From assembly GCA_020445605.1 (NCBI GenBank), contig JAGRGH010000037.1:1-64000 (forward strand): a stretch of 64,000 nucleotides of DNA, given 5' to 3'. How positions within the stretch are numbered: position 1 is the first letter of the stretch; every line of letters begins with the position of its first letter. A program made the position numbers and the translations under genes. Of the stretch, positions 21,441 to 29,597 are shown one piece after another. This stretch comes from Chromatiales bacterium (GTDB lineage: Bacteria; Pseudomonadota; Gammaproteobacteria; JAGRGH01). The notes beneath the pieces were generated by a model. That model was given only the letters and a program-made list of their open reading frames with translations, ran no database searches and was not told where the DNA came from.

Positions 21441-21472
21441 ATAAAGACAGAAGCCGGCGCGAGGCCGGCTTC
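21441..21472 (-). terminator. Intrinsic terminator of the tracrRNA
   Basis: Stem AAGCCGGC / GCCGGCTT (21451-21458 with 21464-21471), extended by one G-C pair at the base, loop of five bases. On the minus strand it is followed by CTGTCTTTAT. It doubles as the last hairpin of the tracrRNA. Confidence 0.85.
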
Positions 21473-21493
21473 CGGATTTGATGCATTTAGCCT

Positions 21494-21522
21494 TTAACAG
21501 CATCAGCTTGTTATCGGATAAA
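21494..21522 (+). promoter_or_regulatory. Predicted cas9 promoter inside the tracrRNA gene
   Basis: On the plus strand TTAACA (21494-21499, five of six to TTGACA) and GATAAA (21517-21522, four of six to TATAAT) are 17 bp apart. Transcription would start near 21529, giving a cas9 leader of about 68 nt whose first 18 nt are antisense to the 5' end of the tracrRNA. This is a pattern match only. Confidence 0.45.
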
Positions 21523-21552
21523 GCGCACTTCCTGATCTGCTAGTGCGATTTC

Positions 21553-21582
21553 AGCCTAGCGCAGGCGTTGTTATTTGGTCAA
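21553..21582 (-). promoter_or_regulatory. Predicted tracrRNA promoter
   Basis: On the minus strand TTGACC (21577-21582) is a good -35 box. TAGGCT (21553-21558), 18 bp away, is a modest -10 with the key T, A and final T. The expected start is near 21546, exactly at the 5' edge of the anti-repeat. The -35 box directly abuts the cas9 ribosome-binding site. Confidence 0.6.
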
Positions 21583-21596
21583 TAGGGAGGCACGGA

Positions 21597-24500
21597 GTGG
21601 CAAGAATCAACTACAGACTGGGATTGGACCTCGGGGTCACATCATTAGGCTGGTGTGTGTACAGGCTTGCTGACAGCGGCGAGCCTGAGTCCATCCGACG
21701 GGCGGGCGTGCGGATCTTTTCCGACGGCCGTCAGGCTAAAACACTCGCATCCAAGGCAGCGGATCGTCGCCTGGCGCGGCAGGCGCGGCGTCGACGCGAC
21801 CGCGTCCTGAAACGCCGCAAACGACTGCTGGAGCATCTGGTTCGACATGGGCTCATGCCGGCAGACGAACCCGACCGCAAGGAGCTCCAGAAGCTTGACC
21901 CCTACGAGCTTCGCGCGCGGGGTCTGGATGAGCAGCTGAGCCCGCACGAGCTTGGCCGGGCGATCTACCATCTTGCGCGCAAGCGCGGGTTTCGAAGCAG
22001 CCGCAAGGATCGCGGCGATACCGAGCGGGAAAAGGAAACTGGCAAGGTCACCGAGGCAATCAAGGCGCTGGAGGACCGGATACGTACGGCAGGTTGCCGA
22101 ACGGTGGGTGAGTACCTGGCCCAGCAACATGCCGAGCGATCGCCGGTACGGGCGCGGCGCTCTTCGGATGGCGGCTACGTGCTCTATCTGCAAAGGGCCA
22201 TGGTGGAGCGCGAATTCGACTCGCTTTGGGAGGCCCAACGCAAACACCACCCTGAGCTATTGACGGATCAACTGCAACGAACCCTTCGAGAGACCATCCT
22301 GTTCCAGCGCAGGCTTCGCCCGGTGATGCCTGGCCGTTGCCAGTTCGAGCGGGATGAATATCGTGCGCCACTGTGTTCGCCGCTTCAGCAACGGTTCCGC
22401 ATGTTGCAGGAACTGAATAACCTTCGTGTCCGCGAGGGGATAGGGCAACGTCCGCTTACCTTGGGTGAACGCAACGCGATGCTTGAATTGCTCGGCGCCG
22501 AGGCGAAGCAGGCCAGCTTCTCGGCGCTGGCGAAGGCGGCGGGCCTGCGAAACGCCAAATCCTTCAACCTGGAGTCGGAGAAGCGTAAAGGGCTCAAAGG
22601 CGATGCTGTGGCTGCTTCGTTCGCTGATCCAGATGCGCTTGGAGATCAGTGGTTTGAATTAACGCCCGAGCAGCAGGAGGGGCTTGCGCTTCTTGTCCAA
22701 AGGGCCGATCAGCATGATCGCCTTGTTGAGGCCCTCCTCGCATTGCCAGAAAACCTGAGCGAGGTGGAGTATCTGGCTCGGCCGCACCCGCATGAGCGTG
22801 AGTTCATCGCCGGCATGGCGAAATTGCCATTCAAACTGTCCAGCGCGCAGGCCGAGCGTATTGCCGGTATCGTCCTGCCCGATGACTATGGGAGTCTGAG
22901 CCGAAAGGCTTTGCAGAAGATCATTCCTGCATTGGAGGCCGATGTCGTTACCTACGACGTGGCGGTTCAAAACGCGGGATATGCGCACCACTCGGCGTTC
23001 CATACCGGCGAAATCTTTGACCGTCTTCCGTACTACGGCGAGATCTTGCAGGGCTACACCTCACCCACCCCAACCGCCAAAAATGACGACGAACGGCTGT
23101 GGGGAAAGATCGCGAATCCCACCGTCCACATTGGCCTGAACCAGCTGCGCCAGCTCGTGAATGCGCTCGCGAAGCGGTTTGGACCGCCCGCTGAAATCAT
23201 CGTGGAACTCGCTCGAGAGTTTGGTCTTTCCGGCCAACGTCGCCGCGAAATCCAACGCGAACAGGCCGATAACCAGGCGCGAAACGAGGAGTACGGCGCG
23301 GAACTACGGCGGCTAGGTAGAACGCCGACCCGCGTGAACCGCGAGAAGCTCCGACTTTGGGAGGAGCTCGGCGCTGACGATGCCATGGTGCGCGACTGCG
23401 TCTACAGTGGCACACAGATCAGCAAGGCCATGTTGTTCAGCGATGAGATTGAGATGGACCACATCCTGCCGTTTTCGAAGTCGCTGCACGATGGAATTGG
23501 CAACAAGGTGCTGTGTACACGTGCGGCAAATCGGGCAAAGGGCAACAAGACGCCGTTCGAAGCCTTCGGTCACTCCCCCTCAGGCTACAGCTGGGAAGCG
23601 ATCGAGGAACGCGCCGCGCACCTGCCGGGCCGTAAGGCGCTGTTGTTCCGCGAAAACGCGCTCGATGAGTTTTTGGGCGAACGCAGTTTTCTCGATCGGC
23701 ACATCACGGACACGGCGTATCTGAGCAGGGTTGCCAAGCAATACCTGAGCTACATCTGCCACAAGGACAAGGTCTGGGTGTCCAGCGGCCGGCTGACGGC
23801 AATGTTGCGCGGGCGCTGGGGGCTGAACTCGCTGCTGTCCGATGACAATCGCAAGAACCGGGACGACCACCGTCATCATGCGCTGGATGCAGCAGTGGTT
23901 GGGCAATGCAGTCGCAGCACCATCCAGCGACTGGCGACTGCGGCTTCGAGGGCCGAGTCCATGGGCGAGAATCGTCTGCTGGCGGAGTTGGAACCGCCGT
24001 GGCCGACCTTTCGCGAGGATCTGGGCGCCGTACTGAACAAGGTTGTGGTTTCACATCGCCCGGACCATGGGACCGAGGGCAGCCTGCACAATGAGACTAA
24101 CTACGGCCTGCGCGGGCCGGAGGACAAACGCGGCAATCCGCTGCTTGCCCACTTCGTTCCGATCGAGAGCCTTTCGTCCGTCGCCGATCTCCAGAAACTC
24201 GCAGATGCGAATCTTCAGAGCCGGCTGACGACACTGCTCTCGCCGCTTTCCAGCGGCAAAGAGGTCAAGGCCGCGCTGTTGGCGTATTCACAGCAGACCG
24301 GCATCCGGCGTGTCCAGCTTCACGAAAGGCTTAAGGCCATCGCGATTCACGATCGTCGCACGGGAGCGGCCTATCGCTACGTCAAGGGCGACGCGAACTA
24401 CTGTTACGACATTTTCGAGTTGGAAAACGGCAAGTGGACCGGCGAAATCGTGACCGTTTTCGAGGCCAATCAGCCGGGGTTCGATTTGCGCAGGGCGCCG

Positions 24501-24785
24501 GATGTGCAGGGGCGCAGGTTCATGTTTCGGCTCAGGAAGGACGATCTGTTGGCGCTGGAGATCGATCAAAACCGGGTGGTCTATCGCGTGGTAAAAATTT
24601 CAGCCGGCATTATTGCGCTGGCCCCACACTGTGAGAGTAACGTAGATGCGCGTGATCGAGCCAAGGCCGACCCGTTTAACTATCTAAGGGTCGCGCCAAG
24701 TCGGCTCGGACCTTTGAGAGCGAGGGTTGTAGGGGTCGATGTCCTCGGCTACGTGAATGACCCTGGCTTCAAGGGCCAATCGTGA
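21597..24785 (+). CDS. cas9: Cas9 endonuclease, compact type II-C
   Basis: 1062-aa RNA-guided DNA endonuclease. RuvC-I is YRLGLDLGVTSLGW with D11. An Arg-rich bridge helix follows (ADRRLARQARRRRDR). RuvC-II is EIIVELARE with E537. The HNH domain has MDHILPFS with D621 and H622, then N636 and N645 (counterparts of SpCas9 N854 and N863). RuvC-III is HRHHALDAAV with H761 and D764. All catalytic positions are intact, so it should cut both strands. The size matches Neisseria-type II-C Cas9 and there is no cas4 or csn2. The GTG at 21597 is chosen because AGGGAGG lies 6 bp upstream; an ATG at 21543 falls inside the anti-repeat and lacks a binding site. The C-terminal PAM-interacting region (about 860-1062) is divergent, and the PAM cannot be read from sequence. 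Confidence 0.97.
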   Translation: MARINYRLGLDLGVTSLGWCVYRLADSGEPESIRRAGVRIFSDGRQAKTLASKAADRRLARQARRRRDRVLKRRKRLLEHLVRHGLMPADEPDRKELQKLDPYELRARGLDEQLSPHELGRAIYHLARKRGFRSSRKDRGDTEREKETGKVTEAIKALEDRIRTAGCRTVGEYLAQQHAERSPVRARRSSDGGYVLYLQRAMVEREFDSLWEAQRKHHPELLTDQLQRTLRETILFQRRLRPVMPGRCQFERDEYRAPLCSPLQQRFRMLQELNNLRVREGIGQRPLTLGERNAMLELLGAEAKQASFSALAKAAGLRNAKSFNLESEKRKGLKGDAVAASFADPDALGDQWFELTPEQQEGLALLVQRADQHDRLVEALLALPENLSEVEYLARPHPHEREFIAGMAKLPFKLSSAQAERIAGIVLPDDYGSLSRKALQKIIPALEADVVTYDVAVQNAGYAHHSAFHTGEIFDRLPYYGEILQGYTSPTPTAKNDDERLWGKIANPTVHIGLNQLRQLVNALAKRFGPPAEIIVELAREFGLSGQRRREIQREQADNQARNEEYGAELRRLGRTPTRVNREKLRLWEELGADDAMVRDCVYSGTQISKAMLFSDEIEMDHILPFSKSLHDGIGNKVLCTRAANRAKGNKTPFEAFGHSPSGYSWEAIEERAAHLPGRKALLFRENALDEFLGERSFLDRHITDTAYLSRVAKQYLSYICHKDKVWVSSGRLTAMLRGRWGLNSLLSDDNRKNRDDHRHHALDAAVVGQCSRSTIQRLATAASRAESMGENRLLAELEPPWPTFREDLGAVLNKVVVSHRPDHGTEGSLHNETNYGLRGPEDKRGNPLLAHFVPIESLSSVADLQKLADANLQSRLTTLLSPLSSGKEVKAALLAYSQQTGIRRVQLHERLKAIAIHDRRTGAAYRYVKGDANYCYDIFELENGKWTGEIVTVFEANQPGFDLRRAPDVQGRRFMFRLRKDDLLALEIDQNRVVYRVVKISAGIIALAPHCESNVDARDRAKADPFNYLRVAPSRLGPLRARVVGVDVLGYVNDPGFKGQS

Positions 24786-25732
24786 TCGGTCGCGTCGTCG
24801 AGGTCGCGGGGGCGGGGCGTTACCTGTCGCTGGATCGTGGCTTTCTGGTCGTCAATCACGGTGGCGGAGAGGTTGCCCGCACGCCGATCGACGACATTGC
24901 CGCGCTGATCGGCAATGGCCACGGGCTCAGCTACAGCAACAACTTGCTGGTGGCGCTGGCTGAACGCGGCTGCCCGTTCGTGCTTTGCGGGGCGAATCAT
25001 CGCCCGGTGGCGATGTTGTGGCCGGTCGAAAGCCATCATCGCCAAGCTGCGCGTATGGACGCACAATTGGCCGCCTCGCTGCCCATGCGCAAACGCTTAT
25101 GGAAGCAGGTCGTACAGGCAAAGATCGGCATGCAGGCTGCGGTCGTGGACCTGTTCGACGGGCCGCCGGCGCCCCTGTTAAGAATGGTCCGAGCCGTGCG
25201 TGCCGGCGACCCCTCCAATGTGGAAGGCCAGGCCGCACGGCTTTACTGGTCTCAGCTGTTCGGTGGCGATTTCCGCCGCAGGCGCCACGGTGGTGACCAG
25301 AATCTGTTGCTGAACTACGGCTATACGATCCTTCGGGCGACGGTCGCCCGACAGCTCATGGCGGCTGGGCTGCACCCCGGAATTCCCTTGCACCACGCGA
25401 ACGAGGGCAATTCCATGCGATTGGTCGATGACCTCATGGAACCCTTCCGGCCGTTGGTGGATGCCTGGGTGCGCAGGCTTTGGGATGGCGGTCAGCGCGA
25501 CCTCACCCCGCTGGTCAAGCGTGCATTGGCACGCCTGCCGGTGCGCAGCCTGCATGTCGTTCAGGGTGTCAGCCCGGTCACGATCGTGATTCAGCGGCTG
25601 TGCGTCTCGCTCGCGCAGTGTTACGAGGCGCAAGCAAAGGAGTTGGTCCTGCCGCCGCCTGGGCGGGATGTGATTGCATCGTTGTGGGACGACGAACATG
25701 ACGAAACCGAGCGGGACGCGGAAACCTCGTGA
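24782..25732 (+). CDS. cas1: Cas1 spacer-acquisition integrase, type II
   Basis: 316-aa integrase subunit that with Cas2 inserts new spacers into the array. The N-terminal beta domain begins with GRVVEVAGAGRYLSLDRGFL. The catalytic helical domain has NVEGQAARLYW with the metal-binding Glu, a His block GIPLHHANEGNSM, and the acidic block LVDDLMEPFRPLVD. The length and sequence are type II-like. The GTG start overlaps the cas9 TGA (GTGA), so translation is coupled to cas9. Confidence 0.95.
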   Translation: MIGRVVEVAGAGRYLSLDRGFLVVNHGGGEVARTPIDDIAALIGNGHGLSYSNNLLVALAERGCPFVLCGANHRPVAMLWPVESHHRQAARMDAQLAASLPMRKRLWKQVVQAKIGMQAAVVDLFDGPPAPLLRMVRAVRAGDPSNVEGQAARLYWSQLFGGDFRRRRHGGDQNLLLNYGYTILRATVARQLMAAGLHPGIPLHHANEGNSMRLVDDLMEPFRPLVDAWVRRLWDGGQRDLTPLVKRALARLPVRSLHVVQGVSPVTIVIQRLCVSLAQCYEAQAKELVLPPPGRDVIASLWDDEHDETERDAETS

Positions 25733-26078
25733 CGATCCGCGTGCGGCCCCGCCGCTGTGCGCCTATCGGCTGATGTGGATGCTGGTGATGTTCGACCTGC
25801 CGGTCGACACGGCGGAAAACCGCAAGGCGGCCAACGACTTTCGCAATGATCTGCTCGATTTTGGCTTCGAGCGTTGCCAGTTTTCCGTGTACCTGCGCTT
25901 TGTGGAGGGGCGCGAACAGGCCGACACCTGGACGCGAAGGGTAAAATCCGTACTACCGCCCGGTGGCAAGGTCTACTGCCTGTATTTCACCGACAAGCAG
26001 TATCAGGGCATCGTCCGGTTCGAGCGGCGAAAGCGCCAGAAACCGCTGAAAAACCCCGACCAGTTCCAGTTGTTCTGA
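25698..26078 (+). CDS. cas2: Cas2 spacer-acquisition protein
   Basis: 126-aa ferredoxin-fold partner of Cas1. The type II signature YRLMWMLVMFDLPVDT starts near residue 20, followed by GFERCQFSVYLRF and a C-terminal KNPDQFQLF. The ATG at 25698 overlaps cas1 by 35 bp; another ATG at 25674 is in frame, and starts as late as 25772 would still keep the core, so the first 15-25 residues are uncertain. It is the last cas gene; only 72 bp lie between its stop and the first repeat. Confidence 0.94.
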   Translation: MTKPSGTRKPRDDPRAAPPLCAYRLMWMLVMFDLPVDTAENRKAANDFRNDLLDFGFERCQFSVYLRFVEGREQADTWTRRVKSVLPPGGKVYCLYFTDKQYQGIVRFERRKRQKPLKNPDQFQLF

Positions 26079-26114
26079 GGCAAGTGACGCAGTTTTATCC
26101 CCGTCTCCGCGGCG

Positions 26115-26137
26115 AAAACCCCTGCCAGAACAGGGGC
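26115..26137 (-). terminator. Intrinsic terminator at the cas2-side end of the array
   Basis: On the minus strand a stem CCCCTG / CAGGGG (26131-26136 with 26119-26124, six-base loop) is followed directly by TTTTC. On the plus strand the same hairpin has no T-run. It lies 14 bp beyond the repeat at 26151, so it ends a minus-strand array transcript before cas2. Confidence 0.72.
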
Positions 26138-26150
26138 TTGCCGCGGGCCG

Positions 26151-28664
26151 GAGCGTAACAGATCAGGAAGTGCGCCTTAGCCGGAACTCGGCTGCCGGAC
26201 GACCACATCGGCATCCTGAGCGTAACAGATCAGGAAGTGCGCCTTAGCCGGAACTGCTCGCGCGCACGCTTCAACCTAGGCGATGAGCGTAACAGATCAG
26301 GAAGTGCGCCTTAGCCGGAACGAATGACCCGCTTCACAACGGGCATTCCCAGAGCGTAACAGATCAGGAAGTGCGCCTTAGCCGGAACTTATATCTCCAA
26401 TAGTATAATCGGCCATCTGAGCGTAACAGATCAGGAAGTGCGCCTTAGCCGGAACTGAATCACCAGCAACAGATCAAGTTTGTTCGAGCGTAACAGATCA
26501 GGAAGTGCGCCTTAGCCGGAACGTGGCGCAGCACCTTGCCAATGGCCTGCAAGAGCGTAACAGATCAGGAAGTGCGCCTTAGCCGGAACTTGGACGCATA
26601 CCAAGCCTTCTGCCTTTCCGAGCGTAACAGATCAGGAAGTGCGCCTTAGCCGGAACCCATCCGGGGCGTTGGAGATGGCGGGCGCGGAGCGTAACAGATC
26701 AGGAAGTGCGCCTTAGCCGGAACGTCGGAGCTTCTAACATGCGCCAGACTCGGAGCGTAACAGATCAGGAAGTGCGCCTTAGCCGGAACTGGGTCTGGAT
26801 CACACCATGGTCAAAGGATGAGCGTAACAGATCAGGAAGTGCGCCTTAGCCGGAACCTGGGCAAGTAGCCCTTGCAGCGGCGCATGGAGCGTAACAGATC
26901 AGGAAGTGCGCCTTAGCCGGAACGTAACTCCTTGCCGGGTTTCCGGCGAATGGGAGCGTAACAGATCAGGAAGTGCGCCTTAGCCGGAACTATTGGGTGC
27001 GCTTGACCGCCCGCAGCGCGAGCGTAACAGATCAGGAAGTGCGCCTTAGCCGGAACGGCGCGGGCACGCTTGACGTTTACGTGGCGGAGCGTAACAGATC
27101 AGGAAGTGCGCCTTAGCCGGAACAGGCGCCAGCCGTTGAGAACAAACTGGATTGAGCGTAACAGATCAGGAAGTGCGCCTTAGCCGGAACCGTCATCGAC
27201 CGCACGCCCGCGCAAAATTCGAGCGTAACAGATCAGGAAGTGCGCCTTAGCCGGAACGAGAGTGCTTTGTTTGTCGAGTATCTGAAGGAGCGTAACAGAT
27301 CAGGAAGTGCGCCTTAGCCGGAACCGCCGGAGACGTCCAGCAGCATCCGGAAATGAGCGTAACAGATCAGGAAGTGCGCCTTAGCCGGAACCTCGTCAGT
27401 AAAGCTCCATAGTTGAGGGTCTGAGCGTAACAGATCAGGAAGTGCGCCTTAGCCGGAACCTGCAATTCTTGCTTCGCAGCAGCCAGATGGAGCGTAACAG
27501 ATCAGGAAGTGCGCCTTAGCCGGAACTTACTCCGATTGTTGAATGGCCCGGACTGCGAGCGTAACAGATCAGGAAGTGCGCCTTAGCCGGAACTGGTCGG
27601 ATGGAGGCAGGTGTTCGCAAGCGGAGCGTAACAGATCAGGAAGTGCGCCTTAGCCGGAACACGATGCCGGGGGTATTGTGACGCGCATGAGAGCGTAACA
27701 GATCAGGAAGTGCGCCTTAGCCGGAACGCGTCGCTGCTCATCGTGTATGGCAGGTTCGAGCGTAACAGATCAGGAAATGCGCCTTAGCCGGAACATGATC
27801 GAGTTGAACTCTTCCGCGCGGACGGAGCGTAACAGATCAGGAAGTGCGCCTTAGCCGGAACTCAACTGCATCGAGCAGGTCAGCGAGCGGCGAGCGTAAC
27901 AGATCAGGAAGTGCGCCTTAGCCGGAACTTCCTGCACGATCGCGCGCCAGCGCTCGCGGAGCGTAACAGATCAGGAAGTGCGCCTTAGCCGGAACCATCG
28001 TCGTCAGTTACGATGGCGACACTCTGAGCGTAACAGATCAGGAAGTGCGCCTTAGCCGGAACCGTGGCGGCATCGGTGCATGTAACCGCGCAGAGCGTAA
28101 CAGATCAGGAAGTGCGCCTTAGCCGGAACTCCGGCATGATGATGCCGGCGTCGGTCTGGGAGCGTAACAGATCAGGAAGTGCGCCTTAGCCGGAACATAC
28201 ATGTGCACGAGTGTAGTGCAGAGCCTGAGCGTAACAGATCAGGAAGTGCGCCTTAGCCGGAACACCGACGGCTTGGCCCTCGTGACTGCCATCGAGCGTA
28301 ACAGATCAGGAAGTGCGCCTTAGCCGGAACAACGTCGTCGTAGAGGAAGAATTGCCTGCCGAGCGTAACAGATCAGGAAGTGCGCCTTAGCCGGAACTGG
28401 TCCTCGGTTGATGGGCCGGCGCATTGGAGCGTAACAGATCAGGAAGTGCGCCTTAGCCGGAACTTGTCGGCCGTGGGCATGGTGTTTCGTTGGGAGCGTA
28501 ACAGATCAGGAAGTGCGCCTTAGCCGGAACTCCCCATGGATTCTCCTCGTCGTTGTTGATGAGCGTAACAGATCAGGAAGTGCGCCTTAGCCGGAACGTG
28601 CCCGAGAATGCCCGCCGGAGCTGGAAAGAGCGTAACAGATCAGGAAGTGCGCCTTAGCCGGAAC
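26151..28664 (-). CRISPR. CRISPR array: 38 repeats of 37 bp, 37 spacers
   Basis: Repeats start at 26151 and recur every 67 bp up to 28628. On the plus strand they begin GAGCGTAACAGATC and end CCTTAGCCGGAAC. All copies are identical except the 25th (27758), which has A for G at position 20. Spacers are 30 nt, except three of 29 (following the repeats at 26687, 26954 and 28361) and one of 31 (following 27355). All 37 spacers differ from each other. The direction is called minus because the reverse complement starts with GTT, the tracrRNA anti-repeat pairs with that strand, and a terminator lies at the cas2 end. No degenerate end repeat is seen. The repeat sense 3' end TGTTACGCT resembles an extended -10, as in Neisseria arrays, so repeats may carry their own promoters. 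Confidence 0.99.
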
Positions 28665-28954
28665 TAATCTCGCGACCGTTTCTTCGGCAGGTCGGAAGTC
28701 GCCGCCAATATGGCGTCCAGGCGCGCAAGCATCTCGGTGGCGGAGACATAGTCGCAGCTCTCTAGTCCGGCCTTGTCGAGCGCAAGCCCGCGCGCAATAA
28801 ACTCGCGTTGCGCTTTGCGCCGGTCAATGTTCAGTCGCATGGACTCCCGCACAAAATCAGAGAGTGGTTCGCCTGCGTTCAATACGGGTTCTGCGCGATC
28901 GCGCAGTTCCATGAAAACGTGGAGTGGGTAAAGCGTCCAGTCTTTCACAGGCAA
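28664..28954 (-). CDS. Ribbon-helix-helix-like antitoxin/repressor family protein abutting the array
   Basis: 96 aa. The central part, LSDFVRESMRLNIDRRKAQREFIARGLA, followed by DYVSATEMLARLDAIL, resembles the small RHH (ParD or YlcI/YnfO-like) proteins that act as antitoxins or repressors. The start is a TTG at 28954; an ATG at 28912 would give 82 aa but remove the first predicted strand. Its TAG stop uses the last base of the adjacent CRISPR repeat (28664), so there is no spacer DNA between gene and array. It lies 14 bp after the PIN toxin gene on the same strand and would be transcribed with it into the array. No separate partner toxin is seen for it. Confidence 0.72.
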   Translation of the reverse strand: MPVKDWTLYPLHVFMELRDRAEPVLNAGEPLSDFVRESMRLNIDRRKAQREFIARGLALDKAGLESCDYVSATEMLARLDAILAATSDLPKKRSRD

Positions 28955-28968
28955 TTCCGAATGAGGCT

Positions 28969-29355
28969 CTAGACGATTCGCACATTCGCAGAATAGGCGC
29001 CCAGCCGTGCGTCGCTGGTCAGCAACAGCACGCCCGCGGTTTCGGCCTGCGCAACGAGCATGCGGTCAAATGGATCGCGGTGGACAGGCGCGAGTCGCCC
29101 AACCGCGATGGCGTGTGCACTTGTGACACCCAGCTCGGCGTAGCCATTGTCGAGAAGACATCTGCGCAGTACCCCGGTGTCGACCTGAAAGTCCGGCCGA
29201 CCGAGACCGTTTTTGATCACGATCTCCCAGATACTTGCGGCGCTGAAGTGCAAGGCATTGCTTTCATCTTCAATGAAGCCCCTCGCTTCGCCCGACAACC
29301 GTGCGGGATCGCCCGCCGACCAGAGCAGCAGATGGGTATCGAGCAGGAGGTTCAC
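28969..29355 (-). CDS. PIN-domain ribonuclease toxin (VapC-type)
   Basis: 128-aa PIN-domain protein. The acidic metal-binding residues are visible: LLDTHLLLW (first Asp), a conserved Glu in IWEIVIK, and HRDPFDRMLVAQA plus TSDARL (later Asps). Such toxins cleave tRNA, rRNA or mRNA when freed from their antitoxin. The GTG start overlaps the antitoxin stop (GTGA), the usual order of antitoxin first. It belongs to the subgroup paired with Phd/YefM-type antitoxins. Confidence 0.91.
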   Translation of the reverse strand: MNLLLDTHLLLWSAGDPARLSGEARGFIEDESNALHFSAASIWEIVIKNGLGRPDFQVDTGVLRRCLLDNGYAELGVTSAHAIAVGRLAPVHRDPFDRMLVAQAETAGVLLLTSDARLGAYSANVRIV

Positions 29356-29597
29356 GTGGAAGCGTTGAAGATATCTTCTATTTCGGACTCGCCCATGCGG
29401 TCGAAGTCGTCCGGCACCGAGATCTGCCCCGCCAGGAATCCGGTTCTCCGTTGCTCCGAGGCCGTCGGTGCATCGAGCGCCACCACCTTCACAAGTGGTT
29501 TGCCGGCCTTTGCGATCACGAACGGTTCGCCTTTCGCGGCTTTGTCGACCAGCCGTGAAAGGTGCGTTTTCGCGTCGTGAATGTTGAAGGTTTCCAT
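29352..29597 (-). CDS. Phd/YefM-family antitoxin
   Basis: 81 aa. The N-terminal DNA-binding half is typical: FNIHDAKTHLSRLVDKAAKGEPFVIA, then KAGKPLVKVVAL. The C-terminal tail (DDFDRMGESEIEDIF) should wrap and neutralise the PIN toxin encoded next. It starts the minus-strand unit that runs through the PIN and RHH-like genes toward the CRISPR array. It is expected to autorepress at the palindrome just upstream. Confidence 0.9.
   Translation of the reverse strand: METFNIHDAKTHLSRLVDKAAKGEPFVIAKAGKPLVKVVALDAPTASEQRRTGFLAGQISVPDDFDRMGESEIEDIFNAST

Follow-up and report, generated by a model that had tools for sequence, protein, structure and literature searches.

The region at positions 21441–28664 of the analysed stretch of 64,000 nt (the window) is almost certainly a complete and apparently intact type II-C CRISPR-Cas9 adaptive immune locus. 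Its gene content, family matches and anti-repeat agree with the sequence-only reading, which had described the type II-C locus as complete and its tracrRNA as encoded on the reverse strand. Two features place it in type II, namely a Cas9 with a split RuvC, an HNH domain and the catalytic residues, and a tracrRNA that carries an anti-repeat to the CRISPR repeat. The assignment to II-C comes from an array that lies antisense to the cas operon with a leader adjoining cas2, as read from the anti-repeat strand, the repeat orientation and the conservation of the leader. The operon consists of cas9, cas1 and cas2 only, with neither csn2 nor cas4 in the locus or the scanned neighbours, and the same tracrRNA-cas9-cas1-cas2-array order occurs in 16 relatives. 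In its mode of working nothing looks new; it is an ordinary locus of a well-known kind, and its sequence indicates that it is probably functional.

The three cas genes run head to tail and overlap, as had been read earlier, by 4 nt between cas9 and cas1 and by 35 nt between cas1 and cas2. Specifically, cas9 (21597–24785, plus strand) starts with GTG downstream of a GGGAGG motif and encodes a type II-C protein of 1062 aa, cas1 (24782–25732, plus strand) encodes a type II protein of 316 aa, and cas2 (25698–26078, plus strand) encodes 126 aa counted from ATG. Family matches above the cut-off were obtained with TIGR01865 (604 bits), TIGR03639 and TIGR01573. The RuvC residues D11, E537, H761 and D764 and the HNH residues D621, H622 and N645, all named in the sequence-only reading, are present in Cas9 and conserved across 52 homologues, the position of D621 being occupied by D or E. 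The motifs E148, H204/H205 and E220 of Cas1 agree with E149, H206 and E221, which form the active site in the Riemerella II-C Cas1 (PMC6008519).

The Cas9 is a deep, lone and uncharacterised branch. The nearest relatives found share at most 45% identity with it, and its C-terminal WED/PAM-interacting region is at most 42–44% identical to that of any relative found, the best including L003 and L093 (42%). In trees of the N-terminal and of the C-terminal parts alike it stands alone and joins none of the supported clades, and no characterised close orthologue was found. A domain-swap origin of this C-terminal domain is unsupported, since the window protein falls in no supported clade of either tree. 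Elsewhere in the set, the sister proteins L087 and L091 are alike in their N-terminal parts to L086, L092 and L098 but differ strongly from them in the C-terminal domain, a contrast that resembles a swap of the PAM-reading domain. An identity as Cas9d was rejected, with NCBIfam NF049971 scoring 185.5 bits against a cut-off of 375.

The AlphaFold model of Cas9 (mean pLDDT 80, pTM 0.54) has its best Foldseek match in Nme1Cas9 (6jdv; E 1e-44, TM 0.62). The Neisseria-kind II-C system shares with the window the operon, a minus-strand array with a putative repeat-borne −10, the tracrRNA, the domain order and the overall fold, whereas the two Cas9 proteins are only about 23% identical in the structural alignment, the window repeat is 37 nt rather than 36 nt, and the window tracrRNA has an AACAAG-type tail. 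By sequence, the best PDB match is ThermoCas9 (9ar4). ThermoCas9/GeoCas9 (9ar4, 8jtr) are II-C Cas9 proteins with the same domains (244 bits, phmmer), but the alignment covers only residues 5–815 of the window protein and leaves the C-terminal domain unaligned. Uncharacterised proteobacterial II-C loci (L003 from Sphingomonas horti, L005 from Bradyrhizobium sp. BTAi1, and L086–L105) have the same layout as the window, including the place and tail of the tracrRNA, the 30-nt spacers and the leader element; their Cas9 proteins are 36–45% identical to that of the window, and their repeats measure 36 nt as against 37 nt.

The predicted tracrRNA of about 100 nt (21441–21546, minus strand) lies just upstream of cas9 on the opposite strand, as claimed before, and comprises an anti-repeat, an AACAAG tail motif and a terminator. 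The 28-nt anti-repeat (21515–21542, minus strand) pairs with the repeat with one mismatch and two G-U pairs, just as the sequence-only reading had counted, which corresponds to 25/28 identity at the DNA level (E = 1e-5 in 20 kb), and the repeat:tracrRNA duplex is stable at −49.8 kcal/mol. Directly after the anti-repeat stands the AACAAG motif (21507–21512, minus strand), which is common to the relatives, and an intrinsic terminator (21448–21474, minus strand) has an 11-bp stem and a T-rich tail, with 0.2 expected in shuffles. A weak putative promoter, TTGACC-18-TAGGCT, from which the start of the tracrRNA was estimated, is located at 21582–21553 on the minus strand. The reverse-strand tracrRNA is the standard layout in this branch and no peculiarity, because 16 relatives carry a same-strand anti-repeat in front of cas9, and almost every one of them also has the AACAAG tail and a GC-rich terminator-like hairpin. 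II-C groups differ in where the tracrRNA lies and which way it points (PMC3936727). An Rfam search with the tracrRNA gave no match.

The CRISPR array (26151–28664, crRNA sense minus, GTTCCGGCTAAGGCGCACTTCCTGATCTGTTACGCTC) contains 38 repeats, whose length of 37 nt corrects an earlier reading, and 37 spacers, with a length of 30 nt in 33 cases, 29 nt in three and 31 nt in one. The spacers are all distinct, as had been stated. The repeats had also been called identical, which applies to 37 of the 38; the sole differing copy (27758–27794, minus strand) has one substitution, and both end repeats are intact. Among the relatives checked, repeats are almost always 36 nt long and spacers mostly 30 nt, and the window repeat looks like such a 36-nt repeat with a fixed terminal C, which would give the period of 67 nt. 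In crRNA sense, TACGCT(C) closes the repeat, and a −10-like TANNNT is found at the same place in most relatives, where repeat-borne promoters of II-C would be expected to have it (PMC12080349). Searched in its own genome, the array matched at the locus itself only.

The neighbour genes scanned around the locus are toxin-antitoxin genes. A PIN-domain toxin-like gene and a Phd-family antitoxin gene (28969–29597, minus strand) adjoin the array. A small antitoxin-like ORF (28664–28954, minus strand) gave no Pfam or NCBIfam match, and the far-end repeat opens with the G of its TAG stop; transcription of this ORF would therefore enter the array without a gap. The host genome is the sole member of its family and order among the genomes compared, and its lineage is poorly sampled within the class.

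By homology, the array would grow at its cas2 side, where the leader (26079–26150, minus strand) contains the motif AA-N4-CTG (26139–26131) and a hairpin (26146–26107) that has its T-run on the crRNA strand. On the strand that runs out of the array on its cas2 side, we found AA-N4-YTG, starting 11–14 nt from the repeat, in 29/42 II-C loci, a count that includes the window and describes the motif rather than testing it independently, since the motif was set by eye on the same loci before counting. Nevertheless, the motif is not a chance product, because it occurs at the far side of the array in 0/41 loci and averages 0.4 in shuffled leaders. A cas2-side hairpin is present in all 18 near loci (z −1.9 to −6.7) and also in most distant loci by single-sequence folds; for the window leader, the dinucleotide-shuffle z is −3.3 versus 0.1 at the far side. 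Motif and hairpin (26107–26146 in the window) stand at the same place in a diverse range of II-C loci, L003, L086–L105 and L123–L150, and are absent from the far side. RNAalifold on the leader alignment gave no common structure, probably because the stems vary in length and register. One cited paper treats the cas2-side region just as an A/T-rich presumed leader, and a small literature check found no mention of the AA-N4-YTG motif, which we do not claim to be undescribed. We tentatively propose, while judging it rather unlikely, that the cas2-side flank of II-C arrays is an undescribed family-wide element, of which the window is one case, with AA-N4-YTG 11–14 nt from the repeat and in most cases enclosed by a hairpin that has a T-run in crRNA sense; it would serve both as a docking site for Cas1-Cas2 and as a terminator shielding the cas operon from array transcripts.

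Searches with the array covered phage and plasmid sequences as well as some 770 genome entries. Most of the matches near E 0.01 are no better than chance would give, several of them in housekeeping genes, and the protein context bears out spacers 25 and 30 only. Spacer 25 (27795–27824, minus strand) matches phage tape-measure genes. Identity is 27/30 for Xanthomonas phage DoCa3 as well as for the viral contigs L084 and L085, and two enterobacterial phage records reach 26/30; translated, the spacer gives RAEEFNSI, a peptide conserved in tail tape-measure proteins. Spacer 30 (28130–28159, minus strand) matches Mu-like portal genes, agreeing at 28/30 positions with viral contig L106 and at 26/30 with a pair of contigs from genome G273, and encodes the Mu portal peptide QTDAGIIMP. 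These matches to phage genes, holding also at the protein level, support an immune function. There was no perfect protospacer in the phages, plasmids or viral contigs scanned, so current targeting stays an inference. Spacer pairs merged into degenerate patterns had no match in viral contigs, patterns from spacers 14 and 36 yielded no protospacer, and searching with the arrays of two relatives brought up no phage match that could be used.

In the proposed mechanism, Cas1-Cas2 would extend the array with new spacers on its cas2 side, beside the conserved leader motif. The array would be transcribed on the minus strand toward the cas operon, probably from the −10-like elements ending each repeat, with the leader hairpin as its probable stop; a limit of this reading is that the repeat element TACGCT, like the tracrRNA promoter, matches the consensus weakly. 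The tracrRNA would then pair with each repeat, RNase III presumably trimming the duplex, and Cas9 with the dual RNA would cut phage DNA beside a PAM. The earlier suggestion that the locus is or was recently active is thus backed indirectly, by intact genes and RNA parts, a conserved leader and phage-matching spacers, while expression itself is presumed. The same intactness bears on the idea that the locus is a silenced remnant, unspoiled in sequence, in which expression and spacer uptake have ceased. The missing perfect protospacers and the 2–3 mismatches of the best spacer matches, as expected of old spacers, are consistent with it; however, with one genome in its order the host lineage is so poorly sampled that missing perfect matches say little, and the locus retains three open genes, all catalytic residues, 37/38 identical repeats with both end repeats intact, and an intact tracrRNA and leader. 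We consider such a remnant very improbable.

A second possibility, compatible with a functional II-C locus, is that the diverged C-terminal domain gives this Cas9 a previously unreported PAM, for which we see a chance somewhat below even. Of the 3' flanks of the spacer 25 matches (CGAAGGCG, CGAGGGCG, GGAAGGTG, TGAGCAGA) and of the spacer 30 matches (AGAGATGG, GGGAATGG), nearly all have a G as second base and purines as third and fourth, fitting N-G-R-R, which we offer as a weak prediction. The 42–44% ceiling on identity of the domain and these flanks speak for a new PAM, as does the finding that even close II-C Cas9 orthologues differ in PAM (PMC9433092), so that the PAMs of relatives would not settle that of the window. 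However, many II-C PAMs have already been reported, purine-rich ones included (PMC9433092), no perfect protospacer was found, and the two independent targets both lie inside codon-constrained motifs. Because there are only these two targets, which represent homologues and not the protospacers first acquired, with flank bases in conserved codons, no PAM is called.

Read as a functional II-C locus, the region provides a tool candidate, with a compact Cas9 (1062 aa), an uncharacterised PAM-reading domain and a readily predicted guide scaffold; a guide would join the spacer to GTTCCGGCTAAGGCGCACTTCC, followed by GAAA and by the tracrRNA segment that begins at GGAAGTGCGC and runs up to the terminator. 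A leader element across II-C loci would make II-C spacer insertion directly testable. Biologically, the locus adds one more intact II-C immune system, from an order represented by a single genome among the genomes compared.
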